From Pseudomonadota bacterium (GTDB taxonomy: Bacteria; Pseudomonadota; Gammaproteobacteria; Xanthomonadales; SZUA-38), in contig JBCCCR010000015.1 in the NCBI GenBank assembly GCA_039033415.1, forward strand, positions 62,001 through 126,000: a stretch of 64,000 nucleotides of DNA, given 5' to 3'. The notes beneath the pieces are model-generated. The model was not told the DNA's origin, did not search any database, and saw only the letters and a program-made list of their open reading frames with translations. Positions 2,103 through 22,430 of this stretch are shown here, in pieces (within the stretch, counting starts at the first letter, position 1; each line of letters begins with the position of its first letter). The position numbers were made by a program, and so were the translations under genes.

Positions 2103-2536
2103 CGGCTGGGCGCTATTGGGCGAGTCGGTCTGACCCTGGAACTACCCAGGAACCGGGCCTCGAAGATTACGACGAGACCGACTTGGCCATGATGAACGAG
2201 GCGTCCCGGGCGGCAATCGCTGCCCGGAGCGCTCAGGCATCAGCGAGCTCTCAGCCCGACTTCGAAATCTTCTACAACAACTGGCTGGCGTGGGGTGTCT
2301 TTCAGGCTTGTACGACTCAATGGCGCATCGCGCCGATGGGCGGGTACACCGGCTTGGACTACACCGCCGTGCATTCCGTGATGACCACCCTGGGCATTGC
2401 GAAGAAGAAACGCTCTTCACATTTCAACCGCCTTCGCTACATCGAGGCCGGCGCAATGGCCGAGATGGCCGAGCAGCGCAAACGGGCTGAGAAGAAGCGC
2501 GAGCGCGAGCAGCAGACCCGCCGGAGACGTCGTTGA
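2096..2536 (+). CDS. Tail assembly chaperone GT extension (DUF1799-like)
   Basis: This open frame is entered by -1 frameshifting from the upstream chaperone. After the slip the product continues LLAAGRYWASRSDPGTTQEP. The part from about 2270 contains a W-x6-F-x4-TQWRIAPMGGYTGLDYTA stretch typical of DUF1799, the T-domain family of tail chaperones, and it ends in a very basic coiled tail (KKREREQQTRRRRR). Independent initiation (for example TTG 2183 or ATG 2189) is possible but no good ribosome binding site is seen. In lambda the GT fusion binds the tape measure and recruits tube subunits. Confidence 0.8.
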   Translation, partial: LLAAGRYWASRSDPGTTQEPGLEDYDETDLAMMNEASRAAIAARSAQASASSQPDFEIFYNNWLAWGVFQACTTQWRIAPMGGYTGLDYTAVHSVMTTLGIAKKKRSSHFNRLRYIEAGAMAEMAEQRKRAEKKREREQQTRRRRR

Positions 2537-5500: not shown

Positions 5501-7806
5501 TCGAGGAAAGCTTCGAAGAGTTCACGACGCGCGTACTCGCAGAAAACCTGCTGGGCACGCTGGCCGGCGCGGTCGGCGACCGGGAGGTCACCCGCCAGCT
5601 GACCGTGGGCGATTTGGTAGGCCGCGAGTTCTTGGGCGATCTGGGCAGCTTCGGCGGCGTCGATCTCGGCCGAGTGATCGGAGAGACCGTCGAGTCGGTC
5701 AACGAAGTGCAGTTCATCGCTGAGCGCTGGCGCGACAACGCGGAGCTCCTACTGGAAGGTGCCCAGTTCCTGCTAGTCGCTCAAGACGACATTCAGCGCG
5801 GCGTAGCGCTTCTGCGAGGCGAAGGCGGCCTGCTGGAGCTCACCGATCTGACCGAGTCGCTGGCGTTCGGCAGCGAGACACTGACTGAGACCTATCTGCG
5901 GCTCGTCGACTCAACAGCGTTGGCCGAAGACGTCTTCCGGGCGTTCAACGGCACCTTCGAAGGCACCCGCGAGGGCTTCGTCCGCTTCAGCTCGGAGCTC
6001 GTCGATTTGCTGGGCGGCCTAGACGCTGCGGGGCAGGCGTTCACGAACATCGTCGAACAGTTCTTCTCGCCCGAAGAAGCCTTGCAGCTGCAGCTCGATC
6101 AGGCGGCGACGATCCGTAACCAGCTGCTTTCGGAAGCCAACCTGTCGGCCGGCATCACCGGCGCACAGTTCCGCGACATCCTGACCGAAGCGATCGACGG
6201 CGGCGCAACGCCGGAGCGGCTGGCAACGCTGATTCAGCTCGGCGACGTGCTGGCGACGATCTCCGGCCTCGAGCGCGAGCTGGCTGACGTTCGATCCGAA
6301 GCCGCGGAGCTCGAGCAAGAGCGGGTCAACAGCCTTCGCGAGCTCCTGCAGGGTCTCGACGAGACGGTCCGGTCATCCGGCCAGACGGAGTTCCAGCAGC
6401 AGCTGACGGCACTGGCGCAGTCTTTCCGGGAGGCGATGACCGAAGCCCGGGCGCTCGGCGCTGACACCGACCAGCTGGCTCAAGTTCAAGCGCGCTTTGC
6501 GTTCCAGCAGCAACAGCTGATCGATCAGCTGCGACTGAGCACGCTCGACCTCGGCGCCCAGCTGTTTGGGACGCCCCTGACTGAGATTGAGGCGCGCATC
6601 GCTGAGCTCCAGGCGCAAACAAGCGGCGGCTTTGAGTCAGCGGCCGACGGTGCGCAGCGACTGTTCGAGCAGATCGCACGCGGTCTACAGCGGATCACCG
6701 AGTTCGTTAATGATCTTCTGCTCGACGAGAGCCTGACGACCCTGACACCGCGTCAGCGGGTCAACGAAGCGGAGCGTCAGTTCCTCGATACGCTGACCGC
6801 GGCGCAGGGTGGCGACGTCGATGCGCTGAACAACTTGCCGGATATTGCCCGCGAGTTCCTGACAGAAGCCCGCGATTTCTTTGCAAGTTCCGACGCGTTC
6901 ACCGATATCTTCAACTTCGTGACCAACGCCTTAAACGGGCTGAACGTGACGGCACCCACCGGCGATGGGGGTGGCGGGGGCGGCACCAGTCCGCTCAATG
7001 CTGAGCTCCAGTCGCTGCTCGCGGAGCGAGATCGACTGCTGGCGCAGCAGGAAGAAGACCGCCGGCGCGCGCTGGCTGAGCAGTTGGCCCAGAACGTCGC
7101 GGATCTGAGCGCGGCCACTGGCGCCACGCTCGAGGCGACCTTGGAGGAGCTCGGTATTGATCTTGCCGATCTAGTGTCCGCGCTGGGTATTGATATCGCG
7201 AACCTGAGCCAGGACGCGGCCGACGAGCTGCTGAACCTTGCGCGCACGCTCAACGTCGAGCTGAGCGACCTGTCGACCAACCTAGGACTCGACCTAGGCT
7301 CGCTGGGAAGCAACGACAGCTTCTTGAACACGCTGCTCGTCGACGCCGTCAACGGTCTGCCTCCGGAGCTCAGCAATCAGCTGCAGCCGCTCCTACAGGC
7401 GATCCAAGACGCCGATACCGACTCGACGTTCGCTACGGCCGTCGATGCCTTCAGTGCGGCCGTGCTGGACCTGCCGCTAACCATTCAGCAGATCTTCGCA
7501 CCGCTCTTCGACGACGTCGACATTGACCCGGCGGATCTGCTGGGCGGCGAGGTGACGCTGGCCGACACGAACTCGATCTTGGACGTTCAGACCAGCCTGC
7601 TGCGAGAGATCGCCAGCGGTCGGCCGATCACGGAGCCGAAAGACGAGACGACGCCGGACGGTCGTAAGAACGATCTCACGCTGCTCGAAGAGCCGCTGGT
7701 TGAGATCGCCGATGGAATCGACGACCTGCCGGGCAACTTCCGTAACGCGGTTCAACCGCTCGTGGATGAGATCCGCGATCTTGGCAACAGGGAGAGACAG
7801 AAATGA
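2533..7806 (+). CDS. Phage tail tape measure protein
   Basis: The 1757-residue product sets tail length and is ejected with the DNA. It starts at TTG 2533, six bases after GGAG and overlapping the preceding TGA. Residues about 85-235 match the tape measure N-terminal domain (TIGR02675 type; ETSAAIIQLAQGLAAGALRG). Residues about 290-380 form several hydrophobic segments usual for the membrane-inserting part. Long coiled-coil and Q/E/L-rich stretches follow, with a Gly-rich linker near 1480 and an unusual leucine-patterned repeat near 1537-1592. Length would predict a tail of roughly 250 nm by the usual 0.15 nm per residue rule (inference). Confidence 0.93.
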   Translation: MTTKFFQTGIVVTGDARGGVRALGLTQDQVRKLNATMAAGTATAQGYSASLRASAGSSLIARQAAFALTNQMRNLSAAFGVFESIRLADQYDDLQARLSIVTETQQEFLLAQQETFRIAQDTSQGLRNTIDLYGRLEISLDDLGTSQTRILRLTETINQAFAVSGASAQETSAAIIQLAQGLAAGALRGDEFRSVSEQGTRVLKALRDGLGVTQGELREMANAGELTAEVVLGALESQAVAIEREFQNLPLTARRAFTQLRNSFTQLIGEGNQVIPVVRFLAESLQFVALNLDTLATGILLFAGVRALAPLVAGLIAAVQTVRNFGLAMLGIEAAIAATTVKTAVLSKAFLLLGGPVGLGVAATLGVIAAGWAFFNREAAVSVEKTDEVLERLRLLEGSEIDLTVRTDAIDDALDRLDELSRAIEGFQAEQARAIGRTDLGGIGAEQQRGIAGENIDRAQVEIDRVLDGLQQLGVSADDLGDLYVRRFGEMADATSILRRTVGETQRDMSPLAGTVGEFAVQTVASVLGVNNLAQSIRGLAGAAQDADTNVEQMDLGTFADEIAALTGQLDPAAGAVLKYNQRVAKLNEEFEKGGSKDVVGFSKVIELSSRVLNKQLADLNDNTAALEAQKRAQEELNRAQLEYFELTNQISSGGNPQEALLQQLATDVKELTAAWVAAGAVADGSFGKALQQLTDDYKASMEELESYNVVLKEFRNVMVDLEAEELLRVQIAIEEATEKFGEQSTVVQTLIELYRRLQLAQNPDVFAVPGLFGLTGDGRAIENFQELLSNAFDEARSAGSFRQFFDAIVDGFREASRQGGEALAAAVNSAAQFGAFAVNSFRNNPDSPLRALTEVASQIPGIVGQVAQTVAAVDSIFGGRLLGTNFETDGSGRNFSFGAGGFSGGTFENQSRQRSFFRGTARRTIERDLDPAAQRQLDLFFDEVSDAISDSARRLGVAIPQLIAGNFEEEFDADGNLVRSVSSVLGRTFEESFEEFTTRVLAENLLGTLAGAVGDREVTRQLTVGDLVGREFLGDLGSFGGVDLGRVIGETVESVNEVQFIAERWRDNAELLLEGAQFLLVAQDDIQRGVALLRGEGGLLELTDLTESLAFGSETLTETYLRLVDSTALAEDVFRAFNGTFEGTREGFVRFSSELVDLLGGLDAAGQAFTNIVEQFFSPEEALQLQLDQAATIRNQLLSEANLSAGITGAQFRDILTEAIDGGATPERLATLIQLGDVLATISGLERELADVRSEAAELEQERVNSLRELLQGLDETVRSSGQTEFQQQLTALAQSFREAMTEARALGADTDQLAQVQARFAFQQQQLIDQLRLSTLDLGAQLFGTPLTEIEARIAELQAQTSGGFESAADGAQRLFEQIARGLQRITEFVNDLLLDESLTTLTPRQRVNEAERQFLDTLTAAQGGDVDALNNLPDIAREFLTEARDFFASSDAFTDIFNFVTNALNGLNVTAPTGDGGGGGGTSPLNAELQSLLAERDRLLAQQEEDRRRALAEQLAQNVADLSAATGATLEATLEELGIDLADLVSALGIDIANLSQDAADELLNLARTLNVELSDLSTNLGLDLGSLGSNDSFLNTLLVDAVNGLPPELSNQLQPLLQAIQDADTDSTFATAVDAFSAAVLDLPLTIQQIFAPLFDDVDIDPADLLGGEVTLADTNSILDVQTSLLREIASGRPITEPKDETTPDGRKNDLTLLEEPLVEIADGIDDLPGNFRNAVQPLVDEIRDLGNRERQK

Positions 7807-10800: not shown

Positions 10801-11240
10801 GCGCTTGGTACGCCTTGCTCTTTGCGATTGACACGCAAAACGGCGAGCGACATTTCTATCTCAACGAGTCACCAGACCTGTCCATCGATACTGTCTCTAC
10901 CGGAGAAAGCCTCGACTTTAGCGCTGGGGAACAGACCATCGGTGTGGCGGGGATCGAGACCAACGTCAACGCTTTTGACGGCGCCATTTGCCATCTCGGA
11001 ATTTGCACCGGCCTTTTTCTCGACTTCAGCAAGCCCGCCGTGCGGCGCCGGTTCTTCGACAAGTACAACCGGCCAGTCTACGGCGGCGACGATGGCAGCT
11101 TGGCGTTTGGCCAACAGCCGGAGATCTGGTGCCCCGACGGTGACGGAACCCGCAACGCCGGCAGCTTTGGCGCTTTCGTCTTAATCACGACTGGGGCCGG
11201 CTCGGTCTCGCTCGCCGACACCTACCCCACGGACGCGTAA
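7803..11240 (+). CDS. Large phage tail tip protein with CBM-like and tandem LamG-like regions
   Basis: ATG 7803 overlaps the tape measure stop (ATGA) and follows GGGAGAG. The 1145-residue product has an N-terminal hub-like region (1-245), a jelly-roll, CBM4/9-like insert (about 247-410, starting FENWTGGVPDGW), a second tail-hub segment (414-660), and two C-terminal concanavalin/LamG-like repeats. Each repeat ends with the same signature: YFDRYYRPLDGGDDGSL near 840 and FFDKYNRPVYGGDDGSL near 1082. The repeats probably bind a surface glycan, making this a candidate receptor-binding or tail-tip adhesin. Domain names come from pattern recognition, not a database search. Confidence 0.75.
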   Translation: MTTRIVAEFLDTVNGVSAPQYVADIGYTTSNAGSPANTLIEGRLAREININWRIGCIIWDGTESSRSTSSIRIANSDGRYDYLLTRDLRDQAVVVHEISSDTISSATRISVALIDRVDIRDRGELELVTFEKMVKLEVPLLSETYDGSQANPLLTGLSRPLAIGNCENVRPVIIDAPNLVYETNPTELTQIVNVRDRGAVLAPPNADNPGYTTVFDQFTLTNNPDGQITASIFTASTAAFSVVGTDELNGVGDFENWTGGVPDGWTYTAGFIGNPGTLAESGAGGQVEFTASLITNPSQNTDQLATSLNIDLIPGEEYQYTITVVSESNNVNPTEGIQSVRLTVNSFQLPGQNLLGAGAVHPLAAGTYSGVFVAPARAPGPIEIQVLSFGDPTNPGQIVLDNLTIERVQPDTSDDVPDVVRDLIFRAGFEADDFDDTEAVSLQSEIEYALNLYVHPDDPITVRQALEQVTNSFAGFSYVDNEGKFHVDKLRPALPAATPTVVDLREINGDLKILQDRAPGLSARLGVDRNWHPLRDGDVAGVVLEDENQRLTQDYLKIVEASDVEVLAPGYSFAKTAAPRGTLLRDYDGSPQLQIDHEVGLYGQLRYFYEITGALDPSLAKLQPGQTVRLLGDRYGLDSGTDLLVVGVDANYQTGVTKLTLWGTAPRYRTEATAYTGSQSTRIFGLTMPDSNQITVCFCMQADDYATGSEQMIFRCIENGGAGDFYARVRFNGDLQIVGENDAGTTRLNVAVQAPGFVNGAKYSVLLAIDMLDQVLVWINGRAYPTTVTTFTSDSIDPGTIAHIANLSGLGTTQTFGGSISHVGIWFDRAVDLLDPAVPLQYFDRYYRPLDGGDDGSLLNGTAPTLWFPDGRAPNRGTGGAGTVEQDAGTISNSSPTDDSALPGFKRYQTTARSFSNSSGDLGYYRHGGGTVDNALVSGCIAFQLPASLSSGQEYLFDWGSRGVQVLYDGVSERIWVAGENSSGASIAGLRSLSSGLVGGAWYALLFAIDTQNGERHFYLNESPDLSIDTVSTGESLDFSAGEQTIGVAGIETNVNAFDGAICHLGICTGLFLDFSKPAVRRRFFDKYNRPVYGGDDGSLAFGQQPEIWCPDGDGTRNAGSFGAFVLITTGAGSVSLADTYPTDA

Positions 11241-12052
11241 TGTTTATCGCTTGGGACAACGTGCTCGATCTACTGAGCGCGGACGACCTCGATGTGTCTG
11301 GCGGTACGCCGACGCTGCCTGCAGCGAACCTGCTAGACCCGCGCCTCGAGTCAGTCTTTCGCGTGCCCTTTGCGGCTGCCGGCGTTGAGTGCGAATTCGA
11401 CGTGGTGAACGCTGGACTCTTCTTGCCGCCCAACTTCCAGATCCAGGCAATCCTCGGTAGCGACGTTGCGGGCCCGTCGGGCAGTGTGAGCAACGACACC
11501 GAGCTAGCCTCAATCTGGGTGTCCGACTTCATCAACATCGGCACGATCGTCGATGAGACCGGACTGATCCAGCCGAACTATGTTCAAGTGCACGCCTCGT
11601 CCTTTACCGCGCGCAATACTGACCTGCGGGTCTACGCGGCGTCCGGTGAGTTCCAGCAGGTCGCCCGGGTCTGGTCCGGCCCCGTATGGGACCTGCCGGG
11701 CACGGCCCAGGCATCGTGGTCAGACACCGGCCGCATGAACCGTTCCGATCTCGGCTACGGCTTCAAGCGCGAAGGCGTGCGTTACCGCAAGTGGACAGTG
11801 CGGGTGCCGCTTGTCACGACCGACGAAGCATGGAACGACACCGCCAATAACTTCTTCGAAGCCGTGCGCGAGCTCGCAGTCGGGCAAGAGATGCTGTTTG
11901 TTCCATTCGTCGACGATCCGAATGACAGCGCGCACGACGGGTACCTCACACAGAAGGGATTCACCTACGGCCGACTGGCCGCCCAAGCTGAATTGAAAAC
12001 GCAGGGCGGCGATTACTGGGGCGTGCAGATGACCATCGAGGAAACCAAATGA
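11240..12052 (+). CDS. Phage distal tail protein, paralog A
   Basis: The start overlaps the upstream stop (TAATG). The 270-residue protein has no recognised catalytic motif. It shares with the next gene a central W-[SA]-GP-x-x-DL-[PS]-G motif, a conserved GY/YG-x-[QF]-x-R-x-G stretch and the same C-terminal order ending in a GFTYGRL or GFVYGTL segment, so the two arose by duplication. Position after the tail tip gene suggests minor structural tail components. Confidence 0.6.
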   Translation: MFIAWDNVLDLLSADDLDVSGGTPTLPAANLLDPRLESVFRVPFAAAGVECEFDVVNAGLFLPPNFQIQAILGSDVAGPSGSVSNDTELASIWVSDFINIGTIVDETGLIQPNYVQVHASSFTARNTDLRVYAASGEFQQVARVWSGPVWDLPGTAQASWSDTGRMNRSDLGYGFKREGVRYRKWTVRVPLVTTDEAWNDTANNFFEAVRELAVGQEMLFVPFVDDPNDSAHDGYLTQKGFTYGRLAAQAELKTQGGDYWGVQMTIEETK

Positions 12053-12867
12053 GTACGGTGATCAGCTATTTGAACCTGATCGATACGGCGACGGTCAACG
12101 TCTTCGACAACGGCGACAACGTTCCGGGCGTGCCGGGGTCCGGAGCCAACCTTCAAAACCCAAATCGAAACTCAAAGTGGGTCGGCCCCGTCGTCCCGGT
12201 GTCGGGTGGCGCCAACGGCATCGCCTATGAGTGGGACGATTCCGTCGATCTCAGCGTGGTTGCCCTGCTTGACCACGATGCAGTTCTAACTAATCCGGCG
12301 GATTTCGTCCTACAGAACCGAAATGCGGCGCTCTCTTGGTCCAATCTTGCTGACTCTCTTGGCGTTGTTTGGGAAGACGACGAAGCCGCTCGCCACGGGG
12401 TCTGGTATTTGCCGACCCCGCTTGAGTCCACGGGGATTCGAATGTTGTGGAATACCAACGCTAGCACCGGAGAGACGATCTCGGCCTCGCGGCTTTGGGC
12501 GGGTCCGGCGATCGACCTTAGCGGCTCGGTGACAACTCACACGGAAAATACCGAGCTGATCGACCCGTCGACACAGTCCTACGGCCGGCAGCTGACCCGA
12601 GACGGCCGCACGCGACAGCTGAAGCGCACCGTAACGGAGCTGGGCGATATCCCAACCGCAACGGCCTGGGGCGACGAAACGGACTCTGTGAACTGTTTGG
12701 ATAGCATGGGGGCCGCTGTAGGCCGCTCAGGAGACGTTCTGCTCATCCCAGACACGACGACTGCGGCAAACCGGCGCCGTGGCTTTGTGTACGGGACACT
12801 CACTCAGGATTTGAAATTGCAAGGTCTCAGACCTCGGCGAGCGACGATCGCTATTCGCGAACTGTGA
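12049..12867 (+). CDS. Phage distal tail protein, paralog B
   Basis: ATGA overlap with paralog A indicates translational coupling. The 272-residue product is similar in length and organisation to its neighbour (WAGPAIDLSG versus WSGPVWDLPG, and RGFVYGTL versus KGFTYGRL near the end). No catalytic motif, signal peptide or membrane helix is visible. It is the last gene of the tail operon and is followed by a terminator. Function beyond a tail structural role is unknown. Confidence 0.6.
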   Translation: MSTVISYLNLIDTATVNVFDNGDNVPGVPGSGANLQNPNRNSKWVGPVVPVSGGANGIAYEWDDSVDLSVVALLDHDAVLTNPADFVLQNRNAALSWSNLADSLGVVWEDDEAARHGVWYLPTPLESTGIRMLWNTNASTGETISASRLWAGPAIDLSGSVTTHTENTELIDPSTQSYGRQLTRDGRTRQLKRTVTELGDIPTATAWGDETDSVNCLDSMGAAVGRSGDVLLIPDTTTAANRRRGFVYGTLTQDLKLQGLRPRRATIAIREL

Positions 12868-12883
12868 ATACTCGATTTGGTAC

Positions 12884-12920
12884 AAAACCTCAGCACTTCT
12901 GAAAAAGTGTCCGAGGTTTT
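12884..12920. terminator. Bidirectional intrinsic terminator at end of tail operon
   Basis: AAAACCTC-A-GCACTT and AAGTG-TCC-GAGGTTTT pair as a long, slightly imperfect stem, with an A run on one side and a T run on the other. It lies between the convergent tail gene ending at 12867 and the small membrane protein gene ending at 12929, and can serve both. Confidence 0.7.
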
Positions 12921-13348: not shown

Positions 13349-13409
13349 CGTAGAATCGCTAAGTTATTGAAAAATCAATGCCTATTCAACACCTTTTAGC
13401 CCCCGTATC

Positions 13410-13437
13410 TAGGGTTCGAATCCCTCTCTCTCCGCCA
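13410..13437 (+). other. Prophage attachment site: 3' end of a tRNA-Ser-like gene
   Basis: The sequence reads T-arm TAGGG-TTCGAAT-CCCTC, then acceptor strand TCTCTCC, discriminator G and encoded CCA. The acceptor half TCTCTCCGCCA is that of a tRNA-Ser of the GGAGAGA class. No matching 5' half, D-arm or anticodon arm exists upstream, so this is a fragment, consistent with the displaced 3' end left when a phage integrates into a tRNA gene. The common core may extend some bases to the left. Confidence 0.75.
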
Positions 13438-13488
13438 CTCTATCCCCTGCTATCCTGCACCTGCTTTCTGTTACAGCAGGTAACGCCC

Positions 13489-14403
13489 GTGAAAATTGCC
13501 CGGCTAGCTTTCTTCTTTCTCCTCAGCCCCCTAGCCCAGGCCGAATGGACCCATCTCACGGTCAAAGGCGCCGGCGAGGTCCCGCTCAACGTGGTCACCG
13601 CGGGCAACCCGGAATCTCCGCCCATTCTGTTTATTCACGGAATCGGCCAAAGCCACTACAGCTTTGTCCACCAGCTGAACTCCGACCTGGCCAACGATTA
13701 CTTCCTGGTCACCTTTGACTTGCGTGGCCACGGCGCCTCCGGCAAACCCTGGGCGCCGGAGGCCTATCAGCTCCGGAGCGTTTGGGCGGATGACGTTGAC
13801 GCGGTGATGGAAGCCACCGGCATCCAAAATCCCGTTGTCCTGGCCTGGTCTTACGGCACCCTGGTGCTGATGGACTACATTCGGGAGCGAGGCGCAGACG
13901 GCCTGGTCGCCATCAACCTGACGGGTGCTTTAGGTTCTTTGGTGCCGGTTCGTCTGCCGACCAACGACCCAAATACGGAAGAGTTCCTCCGGCTAAGGAA
14001 GTTACGCCAAAGCCCGAATCTGGCGGACAAGATCAAGGCGAGTGAGGGTATGAGCCGGTGGCTTACCGCCACGCCGATGGCGGACGACGATAAGCGTCTG
14101 TTTGACGCAATTTCCCAGATGCTGCCAGCCTACGCAAGAACCCCCATGATGCAGCGCCCGTTCAACAACGAGGATTTGCTGGGCGGCCTAGACATGCCGG
14201 TGATGCTGTCGCTGGGTTCGGAAGACAACCCGCTACAGCTGGAAGACGGCGCGGCGCTGGCCAAAGCCCACAAGAACATCAGTCTGTCGGTCTTCGACGG
14301 CGCGGGACACTCCGTCTTCTTCGAGCAGCCAGAGCGCTTCAATCGCGAGCTGCGGACCTTTGTCGAAGCCAGCCTGCGCGCTCACGAAACACCAGAACCG
14401 TAA
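13489..14403 (+). CDS. Exported alpha/beta hydrolase
   Basis: GTG 13489 is the likely start because it is followed by a clean signal peptide (MKIARLAFFFLLSPLAQA); the longer open frame runs back through the tRNA fragment and cannot be protein-coding there. The 304-residue product has the alpha/beta hydrolase signs FIHGIGQS (oxyanion hole), a nucleophile elbow AWSYGT (Ala in the usual first Gly position), GSEDNP with the acid, and the catalytic His in GAGHSVFFEQPE. A periplasmic esterase or related hydrolase is likely; the substrate is unknown. Confidence 0.85.
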   Translation: MKIARLAFFFLLSPLAQAEWTHLTVKGAGEVPLNVVTAGNPESPPILFIHGIGQSHYSFVHQLNSDLANDYFLVTFDLRGHGASGKPWAPEAYQLRSVWADDVDAVMEATGIQNPVVLAWSYGTLVLMDYIRERGADGLVAINLTGALGSLVPVRLPTNDPNTEEFLRLRKLRQSPNLADKIKASEGMSRWLTATPMADDDKRLFDAISQMLPAYARTPMMQRPFNNEDLLGGLDMPVMLSLGSEDNPLQLEDGAALAKAHKNISLSVFDGAGHSVFFEQPERFNRELRTFVEASLRAHETPEP

Positions 14404-14506
14404 ACCGCGCCAATACCCCTGACGTATGGGCGGCTGCCTAATCCCGCTAGGCTGGGCGTCGGGCCGTGTGCAATACTTTTCCTACCGATAGTCCTCGGGG
14501 AGGCCC

Positions 14507-15697
14507 ATGGCAAAACGCCGCGTCGTTGGAGCAATGGCAGCGCTGGTATTGGTTGTGCTGGCTGTTGGGGCAGCAACCGTTGACTGGCGATTCTGGTACC
14601 GGTGGCACAACTTGCCCAAGGACCCGGGCGAGTGGCCGGCCAGTTACTACCAACCCAAGCACCAGCTGCCCGGCAACGAGCAGGCGTTTTTTCCCATAGC
14701 CAGCGACGTCGAGCGCAGCGTTCCAGGCGATACCCTTGAGTCCGCCGCCGCCTGGGCTGAAGCCCACAACTCAGCTGCGCTTCTGATCCTCCATCGGGGC
14801 AAAATTCAGCTGGAGCGCTACTGGCAGGACATCGGACCCGACTCGCTTTTCACCGGGCGCGCGATGACCCGGTCGCTCTTACCGCCGCTGGTCGCTGTGG
14901 CGATGAGCGACGGCCATATCGGGTCCCTGGACGACCCAGTCGGACGGTACCTTAACGAATGGCGCGACGACGCAAGAGGCAAGATCACGCTTCGGCAGCT
15001 TCTGCAAAACATCAGCGGTCTGGAGAACCCCCCGCTGGCCGGAGATCCCGATCCGATGGCCAAGAACGCGCAGGTGTCGCTGAGCTCTGACTTCCGCAAG
15101 GCGGCGCTCAACTTTGACCTGGAAAACACGCCGGGTACATTTTTCGGCCTGTCGAATGCGAACGCACAGCTGATCGGGGCGGTTCTGGAGTCGGCCACCG
15201 GCGTTCCCTACGAAGACTATTTGAACGATCGACTGTGGAGCCTCCTCGGCGCCGGCCCGGCGGAGCTCTACATGGACCGACCGCGCGGCATGCCTGCGGT
15301 TTACTGCTGCTTTCGCGCGACGCCGCGAGACTGGCTTCGCTACGGGGCGGCGCTCGCCACTGACGGGATGGTGAATGGCCAGCGAATCTGGCCAGAGGGA
15401 TGGACTCAGCAAATGGCCACCCCATCGGCGATCTATCCCAACTACGGACTCCAGCTGTGGGTCGGGAACCCGCCGAACTCGGATCGTCGGCCCTACATCC
15501 AGGGCCAGGAAATGAGTGTGCCGCACGGCCCGCCGGTCGAAAGCGAGCGTTTCTTTTTCCTGGAAGGTGGAGGTTATCGAACGATGATCGTGCTGCCGGA
15601 GGAAGAGCTGGTGATTCTGCGGCTGGGCTACTATCACCCGGAGTGGCAAACCTCCGCCCTCCCGAATCTGATACTTGCTGGCATCAACGCACCGTGA
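14507..15697 (+). CDS. Beta-lactamase-fold protein lacking the S-x-x-K motif
   Basis: ATG 14507 follows GGGGAGG. The 396-residue protein has one N-terminal anchor (about 8-25) and a periplasmic domain of the serine beta-lactamase-like/6-aminohexanoate hydrolase type: ITLRQLLQNISGL, a DYLNDRLWSLLGAG segment, RDWLRYGAAL and a C-terminal GGGYRTMIVLP strand. At the position of the nucleophile motif (after DSLFTGR) the sequence is AMTR instead of S-x-x-K, and the Y-x-N-type motif reads LSN. The classic Ser, Lys and Tyr are therefore all absent, which points to a pseudoenzyme or a changed mechanism. Confidence 0.8.
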   Translation: MAKRRVVGAMAALVLVVLAVGAATVDWRFWYRWHNLPKDPGEWPASYYQPKHQLPGNEQAFFPIASDVERSVPGDTLESAAAWAEAHNSAALLILHRGKIQLERYWQDIGPDSLFTGRAMTRSLLPPLVAVAMSDGHIGSLDDPVGRYLNEWRDDARGKITLRQLLQNISGLENPPLAGDPDPMAKNAQVSLSSDFRKAALNFDLENTPGTFFGLSNANAQLIGAVLESATGVPYEDYLNDRLWSLLGAGPAELYMDRPRGMPAVYCCFRATPRDWLRYGAALATDGMVNGQRIWPEGWTQQMATPSAIYPNYGLQLWVGNPPNSDRRPYIQGQEMSVPHGPPVESERFFFLEGGGYRTMIVLPEEELVILRLGYYHPEWQTSALPNLILAGINAP

Positions 15698-15748: not shown

Positions 15749-16621
15749 CTAGACCTCGAACGGAATCGGCCGATCAAACTCGTCCCAGCGCGGCTTCAGC
15801 AGCTCGGGATACTCTCGCTCCATGCGATTGAGCATCTCCCGAGGCAGTTCAGCAGGTGAGTTCACTTTTTTGCCGTCCCAGAAGCCCGAGAGGTGACCCT
15901 TGCCCTCCGGCATTCCCAGCCACTTGGGATACTCGTAAGCGTAATGTCCGCAAAAATGCACGGGTAGAGAAGTGATGCTCTGGTTCGCAAACAGGTCGAA
16001 CTCGACCCACTGGCAAGAGTTTTCAATGTGGGTGGCCGGCCAGTCCGGCGGCGCACTGCGCACGCTGTCCAGCTTGATGAGGTCGTTCTCAATGCGGAAC
16101 TGCCGAAACACGTCCTGGGTATACCCGCCGCCATTCATATTACGAAAGCCCGCTGGGCTGCCGATCGTGCCGGGATCGTTCAACAGCAGCGATACCGGAA
16201 CCTCAACCCGCTTTTCCGTAATCGGGTTAATGACACTGTCGGTAAACTTGTTGGTTTTGAGATCGCGCGGGTAAGACAGGTTATGGGCGTGAATTCGGTA
16301 GTTGTTATTGCCGAGATGCCGGAAATAGCTGTATTCGATTCCCTCGTAGCGCAGCAGCGGCTCCGGTCGCCGCCCCCCAGGGATCATAAAAACAATCCAG
16401 TGGTACCAGGTCAGGGTCGTGCCCTGCTCTTCCACGAGGTCGCGCTCCATACGCATGTGCGCGCGAAACTCCTCAACCGGGTCATCAAAATCCAGAAACT
16501 CCGACACGACCGGGCTCACCGCCGGCGCAACGGACATCCCGGATTCCGCGCTTAAGGCGCTGCCTCCAAGAACCCCTCCGGCGGCGCCGGCGGCGGAAAC
16601 CAAACTGCGTCTGCTGATCAT
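15749..16621 (-). CDS. Tat-exported DUF1838 family protein, copy 1
   Basis: ATG 16621 gives a 290-residue protein starting MISRRSLVSAAGAAGG, a twin-arginine-like signal peptide. The mature part has DUF1838 features: FLDFDDPVEEFRAHMRMERD, a TLTWYHW stretch, RYEGIEYSYFRHLG, DSVINPITEKRVEVP, and WPATHIENSCQWVEFDLF. The family has no established biochemical role. It is divergently arranged to a second DUF1838 gene (16859), the two sharing a 237-base intergenic region. The longer reading frame upstream of 16621 is unlikely to be translated. Confidence 0.85.
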   Translation of the reverse strand: MISRRSLVSAAGAAGGVLGGSALSAESGMSVAPAVSPVVSEFLDFDDPVEEFRAHMRMERDLVEEQGTTLTWYHWIVFMIPGGRRPEPLLRYEGIEYSYFRHLGNNNYRIHAHNLSYPRDLKTNKFTDSVINPITEKRVEVPVSLLLNDPGTIGSPAGFRNMNGGGYTQDVFRQFRIENDLIKLDSVRSAPPDWPATHIENSCQWVEFDLFANQSITSLPVHFCGHYAYEYPKWLGMPEGKGHLSGFWDGKKVNSPAELPREMLNRMEREYPELLKPRWDEFDRPIPFEV

Positions 16622-16858
16622 GGTCAAGACCCCACAAGTTGCGCCACCCACAGGCTCCGGCATTTTGTCTACGGACGCAAGGCAGAAGACCGCTGGAATC
16701 CATGCGCGTTGGTTCTGACAACCCTTATCATTTGCATGGCCAAAATGAGAAGACGAAGCAAATTGACGCGGGTACTGGGCCATAATGGCGGCGACTCTGG
16801 AACCGGAGTCGGGCGCCAGGGCGTCTGCGGTGAAGCCAAACCTGCCAGGAATCAATCG

Positions 16859-17827
16859 ATGAGCTATTTTTTGACGCGCGCCTTAAGAGGCCTGCACTCA
16901 AATTTAAAGCGGCCCGTGTCCACTCGGAGCCAGCGGCGGAGATTTATGACCGCAACCCTGGCAGCGAGCGCGACGGCCGTACCCGGCACAATGGCGCTCG
17001 CGAGCCCGGCGGCGCTGCCCGCCTTTCCCGGTGGCCGCATTCGATCCGAATTTGTGAATTACGAAGATCCGCTGGAACATCAGCGACAGAGCTTCCGGGT
17101 CCTGCGCAATATGCGTAAAAACGCGGACGTTCTGTTCTGGTACCACTTTCAAATGTACGCCGTGCAGGACGGGCGTCGCCCCGAAGCGGTGGTGCGCTGG
17201 GAGGGCATCGAGCTTTCCCATCATCAAAACCTTGGGCCGGGTATGTACCGAATCGGCGGTCACAACCTGTCTTTTCCCCGCGACATCAAAACAGGACGCT
17301 GGACCGACAGCGCCGTCAATCCGATCACCGGGGAAACGGTTGCGGTTCCCGCGATCACCCTGACCGGCGATCCTGGCTACCTCTATACGCCGGACGGCGT
17401 GATCCCACTCGACAGCCCGGAAGCGCCGCCGCGGATTCGTCACGAGCAGTTTTTGATCGAAGGAGACCTGATGAAGATCGAACAGGTGCGCCAGCCGCCG
17501 GCTTCCTGGCCCGCCACGTTTATCGAAACGTCGGCCAACTGGTCGCCGCTTTCGCTCTTTCAGGACGACAGCATTCTGGATCTCCCGACCGGCACCTCCG
17601 GCGGCTACGTTTTCCCCTGGCCCGAATGGATGGATATGGGCGACCGGCCTGGCCATATGTTCGCCACCTGGAACGGTCGCAAGCTCCAGTCCGTCGACCA
17701 GCTGCCGGCGGAGTTTTTCCAGAAAGCCAGTACGGTTCATCCAGAGCTGCTTGAGGTGGACATGACGAGGTTCTCCAAAGCCCTCCCCGAACCGCTCGCC
17801 AAGCGGGTTGCCGAGGCAGCCGCATGA
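16859..17827 (+). CDS. Tat-exported DUF1838 family protein, copy 2
   Basis: ATG 16859 follows AGGA with 8-base spacing. The 322-residue protein carries a long Tat-type leader (TRSQRRRFMTATLAASA) and the DUF1838 body: VNYEDPLEHQRQSF, VLFWYHFQMYAVQDGRRPE, RWEGIELSHHQNLG, DSAVNPITGETVAVP, SWPATFIETSANWSPL. It aligns along its whole length with the gene at 15749 and the two are clear but distant paralogs. It overlaps the downstream CpcT/CpeT-like gene by ATGA, so the two are probably made together. Confidence 0.85.
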   Translation: MSYFLTRALRGLHSNLKRPVSTRSQRRRFMTATLAASATAVPGTMALASPAALPAFPGGRIRSEFVNYEDPLEHQRQSFRVLRNMRKNADVLFWYHFQMYAVQDGRRPEAVVRWEGIELSHHQNLGPGMYRIGGHNLSFPRDIKTGRWTDSAVNPITGETVAVPAITLTGDPGYLYTPDGVIPLDSPEAPPRIRHEQFLIEGDLMKIEQVRQPPASWPATFIETSANWSPLSLFQDDSILDLPTGTSGGYVFPWPEWMDMGDRPGHMFATWNGRKLQSVDQLPAEFFQKASTVHPELLEVDMTRFSKALPEPLAKRVAEAAA

Positions 17828-18495
17828 ACGCCGTCAAACGTCATCTGAGGGTGGGCATTTTGGCCGCGGTCCTCGCTACCTGCTGCTGGTCCTTCAGCCA
17901 GGCGAACGATCAAGCCGATTCCCTGGCAGCGATACAGGCGCTCCTCCCAGGCGACTATCTTGGCGAGGGGAGTCGGGGCCCTGTCTATCATCGGATCGTG
18001 CCGCTAAAGGTGCCCGCGTTGGGCGGCCAGATTTTCTATCACCACATCAGCACGGAGTCGTTCGGCGGCCCGGCAGCGCAGCGTAAATTTTATGTTTTCG
18101 AAGGCACCGACCTGATCATGCGGTCCACGGTGCTGCTGGAAAGCGGCGTCACGCTGGACAGCAACTGGGACATGGCGCTGCAGCTCACCCAGGTCACGGA
18201 GGAGAAGCTCCTCAGATTTCCCGACGGCTGCCGGTTTCAGTGGCGCGACGACAACGGCGACTTCGTCGCACGCGTAGACCGCAGCGTGTGTAGCTACGAC
18301 AGCCCCACGTTCGGCGGCCGAGTCAGCCCGGAGATGACCTATCGCCTCACGCCCTGCGATCTGGCGATTGCGGAGGGCATTTACCGCGAGGACGGCAGCC
18401 CTGTCTTTCCGCCGTCTGACGTCACGAATCGCCGGATGGTCACAGCAAATGACACGAACAAAGGCGCAATGACGGGATGTAACGCTTCGCGCTGA
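17824..18495 (+). CDS. Secreted CpcT/CpeT-like protein
   Basis: Translationally coupled (ATGA) to the DUF1838 gene. The 223-residue product has a signal peptide (about 1-27, ending SFSQA) and a domain resembling the CpcT/CpeT chromophore lyase family: an N-terminal LLPGDYLGEGS with HRIVPLKVP, a FYHHIS strand, then DGCRFQWRDDNGDFVARVDRSVC and a late IAEGIYREDGSPVF. In cyanobacteria these proteins attach bilins to phycobiliproteins, but many bacteria without bilins carry relatives of unknown role. A calycin-like binding barrel is likely; the ligand is unknown. Confidence 0.65.
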   Translation: MNAVKRHLRVGILAAVLATCCWSFSQANDQADSLAAIQALLPGDYLGEGSRGPVYHRIVPLKVPALGGQIFYHHISTESFGGPAAQRKFYVFEGTDLIMRSTVLLESGVTLDSNWDMALQLTQVTEEKLLRFPDGCRFQWRDDNGDFVARVDRSVCSYDSPTFGGRVSPEMTYRLTPCDLAIAEGIYREDGSPVFPPSDVTNRRMVTANDTNKGAMTGCNASR

Positions 18496-18557
18496 CGTAC
18501 AGTCCCTGCACCGCCACAACGGGTAGCTTTTCTGCAGGATCCCGTTAGGCTAACCCT

Positions 18558-21500
18558 ATGATTTCTCGCTCTTGGACAGCCCGCACAGCCGGGCTCGTAA
18601 TGCTGTTTCTGCCGCTGGTTTGGAGCAGCGCCCACTCCCAATCTCTGCGCTTTGAGCGCTTCGTGCCGGCACTGCAGCAGCCCTGGTATTTCTCCGACGG
18701 GGTTGACGGTATTGCTGCGGTCGGCGATACGGTCTTTGCGGTGAGCGAAGGCAACGCCTTTGCGCTCAGCCGCACCGGGCGAATCATCACGCTCGGCTCG
18801 CCGTTCGGCGCCAATAACGCTTTTGATTTTGTGGCGAGGAACAACCTGCTTTTTATCCCCACCTTCGGTGGTGTGGTTCAGATGGATCAGAACTTCGAGT
18901 CGATTCGATTTCTTTCCGATGGCGGCTCGGGAGGCCCAGGCGGGATTATCCGGGCAGCCGCGATGGACTTTCTGAGCGACGGCAGCTTCGCCGTCCTCGA
19001 CGTGGACTCTTCCGTGCCTGACGCTAGCGCCAACAGCGTCAAGATTTTTGACGCTGACTTTGATTTTCTGTCGAGCTTTCAAGGTCTGGGCACCTGCCCC
19101 ATCACCTTTTCGATTCAGCCGACAGGGCTATTTGTCGCTCCCGACGACACCATTTACGTGACACACACCTGCGCCAGCGAAATCCAGCAATTCAGCCGCT
19201 CTGGAACTCTGCTCCGCACCCTTGGCTCCGTTTCCGACACGCCCCGTCCCCAGGATTTGACGATGAGCGCCGACGGCAACCAAATCGTTGTGGCAACAGA
19301 ACGTGACGTCGCGGTGCTGGACACCCTAACCGGTGCACTGGTTACTCGTTTCAGCCCGCCACCAAGCGGCAGCAACTTTTTTCCCGCCATTACCCTCGCG
19401 CCTGACGGCACGTACTTGCTCGGATCGATCTCTGCAATACACCGCTTTAGCAAAACCTTCCAGCTGCTGAGCACGTTCCAGAGCGCCTCCCCTGAGGAGG
19501 GTTTCTTTGATGAACCGCGGGATATCGCCGTCGATAACCGCAACGGCGTCGTGAATGTCATCGAGGGCCGCAACAACCGAATATCCGTCCTGGACTCCCA
19601 GGGACAATTGACCACGGTTTACGACCGCAGTACGGCGAACTTTGACACGTTAGATACCCCATCCAGCATCGCCAACCTGGGCCAGCTGGGGCTGCCTTTT
19701 ACAGGACTTGAGGAGAACTTTTATGGTGTCGCTGACTGCAACGGCGTGAAGTATTTTTCCGGCGACGGCACGACCTATCTGCCGCTGACAACGGTCGCCG
19801 GCAGCAACCCAGGGGAATTCGTGCAGCGCTGCGGCAAACGGATCGGCATGCTGCCGATCGCCATCGACGACGTTGAGCTTTTTCTCACAGACGGCGGAAA
19901 CGATACAGTCAAAGTCTTCGACGCAATCACCTACGATTTCCGCCGCGAGTGGACTTCAATCAATCCGCAGACCAACGCCCCTTTCAGAATCCGGTCGCTG
20001 ACGAGTGATGGTGAGCACCTGATTGCACTGGGACAAGACAGGGTGGTTTTCTATGATCGCGACGGCGTGCCGCAGCGAGACTTCGACATCGGGGACAGTG
20101 GCGGTGACATCACCTACACGCAGCTCGGCGATCTGCTGGTGACCAGCTCGAGAGCACTGCGACGGTACACGCTGGAAGGCGAGCTGACCCAGGAAACCCC
20201 GTTGCCCCGGGGCATCGGCCCCGGGCAGGTGCGCGACATCACTAACTCCTCCGCCGTCGATCTCGGTAACGATCAAATTGTTGTGGCCGACGGTCGCAAC
20301 AATCGGGTGAAATACCTGCGCGCGCTAACCACCACAGAAAATCCTAAAGCGATTGTGGTTGCCGGCGGAGGCCCCTACCCCGGCAACGCCCTGTGGGACG
20401 CAACCCGGGTCAACGCCAACTTTGGGTATCGCACCCTGCTCAACCAAGGGTTTGACAAGGATGGTGTCCAATACCTGTCCGATGACAATGCCGACCTGGA
20501 CCAGAACGGCGTCGAGGACGACATCGACGCGCCGGCAATCGGCAGCGAACTGGAGGCGGCGATCACCGGAGCCTTTTCCGCGGACGCCACCGAGCTCGTG
20601 ATCTACCTGGTGGATCACGGCGGCGACGACACGTTCCGGCTGAGCGGCACCGAGACGATCACGAGCACCCAACTCAACGAATGGCTGGACACCTGGCAGC
20701 AGGCCAGCGGCGGCCAGCGCATCACCGTGATCTACGATGCGTGCCAGTCCGGCTCTTTTGTCGACGAGATCAGCGCCGGCAGCGCCAACCGGATTGTGAT
20801 CGCCAGCGCACGGGCCGACCAGAGCGCCTACTTTGTCTCGCAGGGTGCGCTGTCCTTTTCCAACCAGTTCTGGACGCAGATCTTCAACGGGCAGTCGCTC
20901 AAGGCAGCCTATGAGGCGGCCACCGAGGTGATCGAGCAGGCGTTTCCCACGCAAAACCCAATCCTTGACAGCAACGGCAACGGCATCGGGAACGAAACCG
21001 CGGACTTTGCCGTGCTCGACCTGATCGGCGGTGGCTTTATCGGCAACGGCACCACCATCAGCGGCTCCCGGCCCATCATCACCAGCGTCTTTCCGCCCAT
21101 CACGCTCGCAAACGGCAACGAGACCGCGCTGACCGCGTTCGGCGTCACCGACTCCGACGGCGTAGCCCGGGTCTGGGCAATATTGATTCCTCCCGGCTAC
21201 GTGCCTGGCTCAGCCGACAACCCCGTGAGTGAACTGCCCACGGTGAATCTAGACTCGCAAAGCGGCGATGATTTCTCGGCGACCTTTGCGGGCTTTTCCG
21301 AAATCGGTACCTACCAGGTCGTAATCTACGCCGAGGACGGCTTCGGCAACGTCTCGGTGCCGAGCATCAGCACGGTGACCGTCAACAGTCCACTGCAGCG
21401 GCGCGCCGTCATTATCGCCGGGGGCGATCAGTCAGACGCTGGCTTTGCGGGAGTCAGCGCCAACACGCGCCTGGCTTACGCGGCGCTGGAACAGCAGGGC

Positions 21501-22430
21501 TACGGTCCGGACGGCGTCTCCTGCGACAGCGCCCTCTGCGACGCCGTGCAGTTTCTCACGCCCGAGGCGGTGGCAGGTTTTGACGCCACCGCAACCCTCA
21601 GCAACGTGGAAGACGCCATTTCGGTATGGGGCGCCACCGAGACCCAGGATCTGACGGTCTACCTGACCGGCCCCCGCGGCGGCGGCGGCTTTCAGCTTGC
21701 GGGCGGCGACGTGCTGACCGCGGCAGCGCTGGACGGGTTCCTGGACATCGCCGAGGCCGCAAACCCGGGGCGGGTCACGGTGATCGTCGACGGCGATCTG
21801 GCCGGCGAATTTGTGAACCAGCTGAGTCCTTCGGACGGCCGCCGCTTCCTGATCGCCAGCGCGTCGGGTACCGACGTCGCGGCCAACGCGCTGGAAGGCG
21901 TCGTGTCGTTTTCCCGGTTCTTCTGGTCGCAGACGCTGAACGGCGCCACGGTGTTCGACGCCTTCCGTCAGGCCCGCAGCGGCATTCGCTTTGCCGCGGA
22001 CTGCCAGAACCCGGAAATCGACACCGACGGCAACAACGTTCCCAACCAGCTATTCGACGGCCTGTCAGCCGGCGCCTATCGAATTGGCTCCGGGATTCTG
22101 CTGGCCGGGGATGACCCCTTGATCGAGTCGACCCAGGGACCGTCGGTGGTGACGGAAGGCAGCGCTTACAACCTGACCGTAAGCGGCATCACGACTACGG
22201 GCACCATCGACCGCGTGGTGGCGGTGATCGGCATGAACGGCAGCTGCGAGGTCACCCAGGTGCTCAACAACCTGGGGAACGGTCGCTGGGGCGGCGAACT
22301 GCCGATGGTGGATTTCGAATCACCGAGACTGAGCGTCGCGGCTTTTGCGGTAGACGATGACGGCAACGTCTCACTGCCGGTGACCCGCAGCGTTGTCGGC
22401 GACCTGGTCTTTCGCAACGGCCTCGAGTAG
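18558..22430 (+). CDS. Secreted beta-propeller protein with two caspase/legumain-like domains
   Basis: The 1290-residue product has a signal peptide (about 1-28), a long NHL-like beta-propeller region (about 30-590), and a clan CD peptidase-like domain (about 598-850) with the His and Cys in YLVDHGGDD (His687) and IYDACQSGSF (Cys729). An Ig-like linker follows (RPIITSVFPPITL), then a second copy (about 948-1180) in which the matching motifs read YLTGPRGGGGF (Pro1039) and IVDGDLAGEF (Asp1080), so it cannot be a cysteine peptidase. A final beta-sandwich ends in GDLVFRNGLE. It may be a surface or periplasmic peptidase; substrate and partners are unknown. Confidence 0.8.
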   Translation: MISRSWTARTAGLVMLFLPLVWSSAHSQSLRFERFVPALQQPWYFSDGVDGIAAVGDTVFAVSEGNAFALSRTGRIITLGSPFGANNAFDFVARNNLLFIPTFGGVVQMDQNFESIRFLSDGGSGGPGGIIRAAAMDFLSDGSFAVLDVDSSVPDASANSVKIFDADFDFLSSFQGLGTCPITFSIQPTGLFVAPDDTIYVTHTCASEIQQFSRSGTLLRTLGSVSDTPRPQDLTMSADGNQIVVATERDVAVLDTLTGALVTRFSPPPSGSNFFPAITLAPDGTYLLGSISAIHRFSKTFQLLSTFQSASPEEGFFDEPRDIAVDNRNGVVNVIEGRNNRISVLDSQGQLTTVYDRSTANFDTLDTPSSIANLGQLGLPFTGLEENFYGVADCNGVKYFSGDGTTYLPLTTVAGSNPGEFVQRCGKRIGMLPIAIDDVELFLTDGGNDTVKVFDAITYDFRREWTSINPQTNAPFRIRSLTSDGEHLIALGQDRVVFYDRDGVPQRDFDIGDSGGDITYTQLGDLLVTSSRALRRYTLEGELTQETPLPRGIGPGQVRDITNSSAVDLGNDQIVVADGRNNRVKYLRALTTTENPKAIVVAGGGPYPGNALWDATRVNANFGYRTLLNQGFDKDGVQYLSDDNADLDQNGVEDDIDAPAIGSELEAAITGAFSADATELVIYLVDHGGDDTFRLSGTETITSTQLNEWLDTWQQASGGQRITVIYDACQSGSFVDEISAGSANRIVIASARADQSAYFVSQGALSFSNQFWTQIFNGQSLKAAYEAATEVIEQAFPTQNPILDSNGNGIGNETADFAVLDLIGGGFIGNGTTISGSRPIITSVFPPITLANGNETALTAFGVTDSDGVARVWAILIPPGYVPGSADNPVSELPTVNLDSQSGDDFSATFAGFSEIGTYQVVIYAEDGFGNVSVPSISTVTVNSPLQRRAVIIAGGDQSDAGFAGVSANTRLAYAALEQQGYGPDGVSCDSALCDAVQFLTPEAVAGFDATATLSNVEDAISVWGATETQDLTVYLTGPRGGGGFQLAGGDVLTAAALDGFLDIAEAANPGRVTVIVDGDLAGEFVNQLSPSDGRRFLIASASGTDVAANALEGVVSFSRFFWSQTLNGATVFDAFRQARSGIRFAADCQNPEIDTDGNNVPNQLFDGLSAGAYRIGSGILLAGDDPLIESTQGPSVVTEGSAYNLTVSGITTTGTIDRVVAVIGMNGSCEVTQVLNNLGNGRWGGELPMVDFESPRLSVAAFAVDDDGNVSLPVTRSVVGDLVFRNGLE

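Follow-up and report, generated by a model that had tools for sequence, protein, structure and literature searches.

To our knowledge, the control of proteases by pseudoenzymes has been studied mostly in animals and plants. The dead homologue c-FLIP(L) pairs with and controls live caspase-8, both being separate, cytoplasmic animal proteins of family C14. Of the gingipain subdomains the second one, B, is catalytic, and PorU of the type IX system is a sortase of clan CD, a C25-type enzyme. As outlined in PMC4626109, the active clan CD subdomain of gingipain R (C25) and a similar one lie side by side in a single chain; the part of this source on separase argues against a second, dead caspase-like domain there, and separase is therefore not drawn on for comparison. 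For legumain, a C-terminal regulatory domain follows the peptidase, and the enzyme, as far as PMC4357240 portrays it, acts as a monomer with no second copy. A C13 tandem of the kind described here was not found for bacteria among the titles and abstract openings listed, most subscription journals being outside this coverage. Here we describe an open reading frame (ORF) at positions 18558-22430 (+ strand) of a 64,000-nucleotide stretch (the window) of contig JBCCCR010000015.1 from a Pseudomonadota bacterium (assembly GCA_039033415.1). It encodes 1290 amino acids, in which a beta-propeller precedes a legumain-type domain with both catalytic residues (D1) and a homologous domain with neither of them (D2).

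Two C13-type domains in one chain

D1 passed the Pfam model Peptidase_C13 (PF01650) with 36.5 bits at a gathering score of 22.8, and by sequence and predicted fold it belongs to family C13. D1 and D2 could be aligned over 223 amino acids with 33% identity (E 3e-25), and their local alignment score was 274, whereas 2000 shuffles averaged 38.6 and never exceeded 70. A first-pass annotation of the sequence had claimed an internal duplication in a secreted propeller protein, with the dyad His687/Cys729 kept in the first domain and replaced by Pro1039/Asp1080 in the second. The alignment bore out the duplication, all four residues were at the positions given and in the catalytic columns, and NHL repeats were found in the N-terminal half. 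Judged from its homology and its lack of both catalytic residues, D2 is a pseudoenzyme of C13 descent and not a peptidase. The window's D2 alone had no Pfam family match. PF01650 was matched by 14 of 35 aligned D2s (E up to 10) with a best E of 1.4e-9, the window's D2 not being among these, and a D2 profile searched against PDB sequences gave only weak matches to glycosylphosphatidylinositol (GPI) transamidase (E 0.088).

A model from D1 to the end of the protein (32 sequences), spanning the D1-Ig-D2 module with its immunoglobulin (Ig)-like linker, reached a predicted local distance difference test score (pLDDT) of 89.3 and a predicted template modelling score (pTM) of 0.89. The predicted fold of D1 matched legumain 6azt_A with a Z of 24.9 and a root-mean-square deviation (rmsd) of 2.4 over 220 residues, and legumains were also the best Foldseek matches. 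Since the fold search with the whole model was filled by D1 matches and said little on D2, D2 was folded alone (35 sequences; pLDDT 88.0, pTM 0.86). This model matched the same legumain-type enzymes (Z 22.4, rmsd 2.5, 214 residues; Foldseek likewise), so that the caspase/legumain-like fold claimed for the second segment was recovered by prediction. PDB entry 3h11, which we take to be the complex of caspase-8 with c-FLIP(L), was among the matches listed for the D1 fold search. Gingipain, separase, and C25 chains were absent among the 50 matches listed per fold search (D1 and D2), an absence that does not count as evidence. D1 also carries conserved Asp-rich loops.

Distribution of the family and state of the dyad

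In its own genome (G000), 12 C13 matches were found, 11 of which were proteins of this architecture; the twelfth, on contig C16, was not recovered by the D1 or D2 searches. The sister genome G001 (Lysobacterales) and G003 of the same family held 8 and 3 copies, respectively. D1 kept both His and Cys in all 22 of these Lysobacterales copies and D2 had neither in any. A full-protein search of 101 genomes, the own genome included, matched seven, with the D1-D2 part in G000, G001, and G003 only and the propeller or the C13 part alone in the other four. A D1-D2 profile matched 21 of 369 genomes of the class, mostly by the C13 part alone. A search in the phylum to which Desulfonema magnum belongs matched at least 15 of 395 genomes. 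These tallies are lower bounds, with the best three candidates scored per genome in the 369-genome scan and the best six in the 101- and 395-genome scans. Scanning named genomes yielded 65 loci. Leaving aside those of G001 and G003, 55 remained, distributed over Hydrogenedentota, Desulfobacterota, Nitrospirota, some Gammaproteobacteria, and one Bacteroides-labelled metagenome-assembled genome (MAG). D1 only was found by the same scan in Asgard archaea and one Anaerolineae MAG. Taxon names are those of the records, many of which are MAGs.

Outside those Lysobacterales genomes, His and Cys were present in 65 of 66 complete D1 rows, the exception being Pro/Cys. Complete D2s elsewhere, mainly from Hydrogenedentota and Desulfobacterota, carried the His in 0 of 25 cases and the Cys alone in 5 of 25. 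Both tallies omit the window, G001, and G003 loci, which are counted among the 22. Also omitted were four D1 rows, of which three were short fragments and the fourth a piece of L111, whose D1 is interrupted, and four D2 rows (42 amino acids of L099, two pieces of the L111 D1, and L117, with a gap at the His); one omitted L111 piece carries a His and belongs to D1, not D2. The loci from the Desulfonema magnum phylum yielded nine distinct D2s with the His column covered, with His in 0/9 and Cys in 4/9. Fragment L191, which lacks this column, was left out here, 4 of the 13 remaining rows were second views of the same gene, and four of the nine distinct D2s were loci already counted in the named-genome scan. 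The first-pass annotation had called for a search for the full architecture in other genomes and had named orthologues with a complete second domain as the result that would speak against it. The architecture was recovered in G001 and G003, D2s occurred in several further phyla, and no complete second domain appeared among the 22 Lysobacterales copies, the 25 D2s elsewhere, the nine of the Desulfonema phylum, or three second copies in genome G316.

Some further relatives were recorded in these scans. Contig C358 of G472 holds a large array of nine C13 matches in about 41 kb (17472-58776). The C13 proteins of Asgard archaea (L140-L143; Sigynarchaeota, Prometheoarchaeum), two or three of them with a membrane-spanning-looking tail by eye, might bear on how eukaryotic legumain and GPI transamidase arose. 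At L110 (Desulfamplus), a propeller-like domain is joined to a C10 cysteine peptidase (11165-12919) and the gene adjoins two C13 genes; here too a propeller is combined with a peptidase, though one of a different family.

Origin of the second domain and selection on it

In a careful tree of 54 of the 131 rows of a quick tree, the 19 D2 rows formed one clade with support of 100/97, which occurred in 100% of 200 bootstrap trees. The quick tree agreed on this clade save for two long-branched rows. G316, another gammaproteobacterium, carries three proteins with two copies each, the second copy being dead (Asn/Pro). Its second copies grouped with the first copies of G316 with support of 100/100, and a shared origin with D2 was rejected for this tandem at an approximately unbiased test value (p-AU) of 0.011, for a group that was named after the tree had been seen. 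By these trees D2 had one origin, and the duplication in G316, which lost the dyad too, was apparently a separate one. Homogenisation by gene conversion in place of a second origin is a possible explanation of the G316 pattern. For the loss of the catalytic residues in D2, an order of His first and then Cys fits the sequences.

The ratio of nonsynonymous to synonymous substitution rates (dN/dS) was 0.031-0.082 for D2 and 0.024-0.080 for D1 in all five orthologous pairs from two sister genomes, so that purifying selection acts on D2 just as it does on D1. The loss of the catalytic residues could also be that of a decaying duplicate, a fossil of the tandem. These dN/dS values in 5/5 pairs led us to reject this explanation, and together with the single D2 clade across several phyla they make it extremely improbable.

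A variable block in the propeller

The window gene was compared with L065, its homologue at the syntenic locus of the sister genome, to which it is 85% identical. In 250-base windows, the DNA identity was 0.86-0.96 over 15753-18752, dropped to 0.62-0.70 over 18753-20243, rose to 0.88 in the next window, and reached 0.93-0.96 over 20494-22243. Farther out it was 0.73-0.87 beyond 22484 and 0.76-0.83 in 13404-15688. Compared with these surroundings, the flanking block is more alike in this pair and the propeller less alike. At the protein level, identity was 92% over the first 50 residues, 44-76% over most of the propeller, and 96-100% over residues 605-1290, and the rate of synonymous substitution (dS) was 1.48 in the N-terminal part compared to 0.17-0.27 in the rest of the gene. 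The boundary of the block lies near the start of D1. A raised N-terminal dS was also seen in the pair L060/L068 (1.05 versus 0.65 in D1).

The difference in the propeller block is likely due to recombination; no donor was found among the paralogues compared. The pattern suggests that the propeller chooses the target and that the D1-D2 module is the constant effector. With the propeller varying as a block and the protease module staying constant, the choice of target may evolve apart from catalysis.

Proposed role of the dead domain

We consider it rather probable that the gene product is a C13 peptidase, secreted or held at the surface, whose targeting propeller is exchangeable and whose partner domain is a pseudoenzyme. 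D1 would catalyse through His687 and Cys729, as their conservation implies, and the N-terminal propeller would bind a target or a surface ligand, varying as a block beside a constant protease module, as in the one pair with the block difference. D2 would be a pseudoenzyme derived by tandem duplication that lost first the His and later the Cys, and would have been kept for an action on the D1 of its own chain, be it that of a scaffold, a gate, or a substrate-holding partner. The C-terminus may serve as a lineage-specific sorting or anchoring signal. The retention of D2 by selection and its presence in several phyla suggest a role in assisting or controlling the live copy, and we infer that D2 may control D1.

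Several observations weigh against this reading. Relatives with D1 alone are common among Desulfobacterota and Nitrospirota, and a D1 of this kind thus does not generally require D2. Dead copies that had no live partner within the stretch covered were seen at L167, L172, L173, and the first ORF of L114. The propeller block difference is clear in one of five pairs, the other four being without a comparable break. The dead pair of G316, Asn/Pro, is identical to that of the L111 D2; for this reason, and because the tested group was named after the tree had been seen, the second origin is termed apparent only.

D2 could instead be a peptide- or ligand-binding module without effect on the catalysis of D1, its old groove holding a partner such as a surface protein. 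The fold of D2 is kept while its catalytic positions vary among many residues, as would be expected of such a module, and for the arrays of caspase-like repeats in polymorphic toxins, some of which lack catalytic residues, PMC3482391 gives a structural or peptide-binding interpretation. We regard a purely ligand-binding D2 as possible though on the whole unlikely, as it leaves unexplained why D2 stands directly behind a live D1 in the same chain, an arrangement that has apparently arisen twice.

Gene architecture and C-terminal tag

The features of the gene are collected in Table 1. The signal-peptide-like start points to export, and the protein is probably secreted. The NCBIfam ScyF NHL model matched the propeller region under its cut-off, and the Ig-like linker gave a weak match to InlK_D3, also below cut-off. 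No toxin domain was matched by Pfam in the window protein, where D2 is followed by no more than an all-beta domain and a short tag. This does not match a polymorphic toxin with a caspase-like releasing domain, which would carry a distinct C-terminal toxin domain behind the peptidase.

Table 1. Features of the protease gene, in positions of the window
Feature	Residues	Position	Strand	Basis
Whole gene (signal peptide, propeller, D1, Ig-like domain, D2, second all-beta domain, C-terminal tag)		18558..22430	+	
Likely signal peptide	1-28	18558..18641	+	judged by eye from the sequence
Beta-propeller region	29-596	18642..20345	+	Pfam NHL, E 1.1e-8; PDB NHL chains
Divergent block		18753..20300	+	DNA identity to the syntenic sister gene; right edge by eye
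D1, C13 legumain-type, both catalytic residues	597-835	20346..21062	+	Pfam PF01650
His687 codon, D1	687	20616..20618	+	
Cys729 codon, D1	729	20742..20744	+	
Ig-like all-beta linker domain	836-944	21063..21389	+	strands in model
D2, dead C13-type	945-1195	21390..22142	+	homology to D1; predicted legumain fold
Pro1039 codon, D2, replaces catalytic His	1039	21672..21674	+	
Asp1080 codon, D2, replaces catalytic Cys	1080	21795..21797	+	
Second all-beta (Ig-like) domain	1196-1284	22143..22409	+	strands in model
C-terminal tag FRNGLE, variant of the family's FxxGFE ending		22410..22427	+	

Among the 22 Lysobacterales members, judged by eye, 10 end in FxxGFE (a few with extra residues behind it) and 12 in a close variant. 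The coding pattern for FxxGFE occurred 50 times in the own genome, regardless of reading frame, compared to once in the reversed control; one of these was followed by TGG and not by a stop codon. The tag, apparently a sorting tag, is frequent across the order in genomes with or without the family, and FxxGFE is a general ending and not the private substrate of the family. A role of D1 as general FxxGFE sortase was rejected, the tag being abundant in genomes of the order that gave no match in the search for the family (66 hits in G017 and 47 in G006). The tail of the window protein had no NCBIfam match. Tails in other phyla look dockerin-like or membrane-spanning by eye, which is consistent with a surface protein.

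Neighbouring genes

The window gene is neighboured by DUF1838 and NAD-binding genes. Two divergent DUF1838 genes (15749-17827) lie upstream of it, in the region of synteny with the sister genome, and the left part of the window encodes a phage or prophage tape-measure protein (2533-7806). Neighbours in Lysobacterales include a Ser/Thr kinase (a cluster of five loci), TPR, collagen-like, and beta-helix proteins, to which no significance is attached here.

A barrel of the FadL/PorV/BamG superfamily was the first or second neighbour at 8 of the 55 loci (L100, L105, L111, L113, L114, L117, L126, and L132), with another barrel further off at L105. All eight loci are labelled Desulfobacterota, Nitrospirota, or Deltaproteobacteria. 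The nine neighbouring barrels all passed the gathering score of Pfam PF03349 (Toluene_X, FadL/TodX) and all matched NCBIfam BamG (E 2e-17 to 5e-25) and PorV under the curated cut-offs of both. In 10 genomes, 19 of 41 barrels lay within 10 kb of a C13 match compared to about one expected (sum over genomes), 8 of these genomes having been picked for such a barrel-C13 pair. The two genomes that were not so picked (G465 and G474) gave 5 of 9 barrels compared to about 0.2 expected. G467 was counted as 0 because Pfam misses its interrupted D1. G465-G474 carry one to nine barrels per genome, all under the BamG cut-off. In the window's lineage, G001 had no barrel match, and those of G000 and G003 were weak and lay on other contigs. 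No PorU (NF033707) reached the cut-off in 13 genomes, 7 of which had matches below it; those of G000, G001, and G003 lie on contigs without the live-dead C13 family. A type IX sortase partner of the family was rejected on this result.

These neighbourhoods bear on a reading in which D1 is a surface sortase or transpeptidase in the manner of PorU-PorV-PorZ, cutting a sorting signal and joining cargo to a surface acceptor, with the propeller holding the acceptor and an outer-membrane barrel delivering the cargo. The excess of barrels near C13 genes would fit this, as would the presence of GPI transamidase and peptide ligases among the best structural matches, and PorZ, as portrayed in PMC8545088, has two propellers, binds anionic lipopolysaccharide (A-LPS), and interacts with the PorU sortase. 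Against it stand the preselection of most genomes in the barrel count, the scores of the barrels under both curated cut-offs, the weakness of the barrel matches in the window's lineage and their place on other contigs, the lack of PorU at cut-off, and the frequency of FxxGFE in members of the order for which no family match was obtained, so that D1 is not the general sortase of this tag. We hold a sortase role to be quite unlikely. Wider still, the live-dead C13 pair with its exchangeable propeller might belong to an unrecognised surface-attachment machinery, acting as a sortase or transamidase whose dead copy holds cargo or acceptor, together with a PorV/BamG-like barrel in Desulfobacterota and Nitrospirota and convergent with PorU-PorV-PorZ. 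This is a speculative proposal that we think decidedly doubtful.

Among the five members over 2,000 amino acids in G000, G001, and G003, three (L058, L072, and L074) cluster with a two-partner-secretion (TPS) exoprotein gene, confirmed by Pfam at L058 and assigned by similarity at L072 and L074. A ShlB-type transporter gene follows at L058 and, by similarity, at L074, and a TPS-domain gene also lies near L107. D1 of some long members might thus mature adjacent large TPS exoproteins. This is quite improbable, as no such neighbour was seen, within the stretches covered, for the long members L064 and L075 or for the window gene. A CHASE2-cyclase gene lies close to L058 and a caspase (C14) gene close to L074.

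Comparison with known systems

The pairing of a live with a dead C13 domain, which we favour as that of a peptidase with its pseudoenzyme partner, brings to bacteria a pair that is fixed in one chain, occurs in several phyla, shows strong purifying selection in the five orthologous pairs, and seems to have evolved on two occasions. A rule for such a pair is thus directly testable by deletion and swap. The repeated PorV/BamG-like barrel neighbourhood points to a possible role in surface assembly outside Bacteroidota.

Bacterial caspase folds without a dyad are described for pseudo-orthocaspases and the caspase-like repeats of polymorphic toxins in the relevant parts of PMC6426788 and PMC3482391. 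Those are p20-type proteins or toxin arrays, while the present case is a fixed live-dead C13 pair. The type IX complex PorU-PorV-PorQ-PorZ has propellers in common with this family, and a barrel of the PorV/BamG superfamily is nearby in some of the lineages studied here; it differs in that propeller and peptidase are joined in one chain here, and in the 13 genomes PorU stayed under its cut-off. With legumain and the catalytic subunit of GPI transamidase (Peptidase_C13, clan CD), D1 shares the sequence family, the dyad, and the predicted fold, which D2 is predicted to share as well, while the window protein differs from legumain by a propeller in front and a dead C13 copy behind. Gingipain R is a secreted surface enzyme, as is probable here, but it belongs to another family, and in the window protein the live copy comes first. 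By analogy, gingipain and caspase-8 with c-FLIP would be the closest working parallels of the D1-D2 pair.

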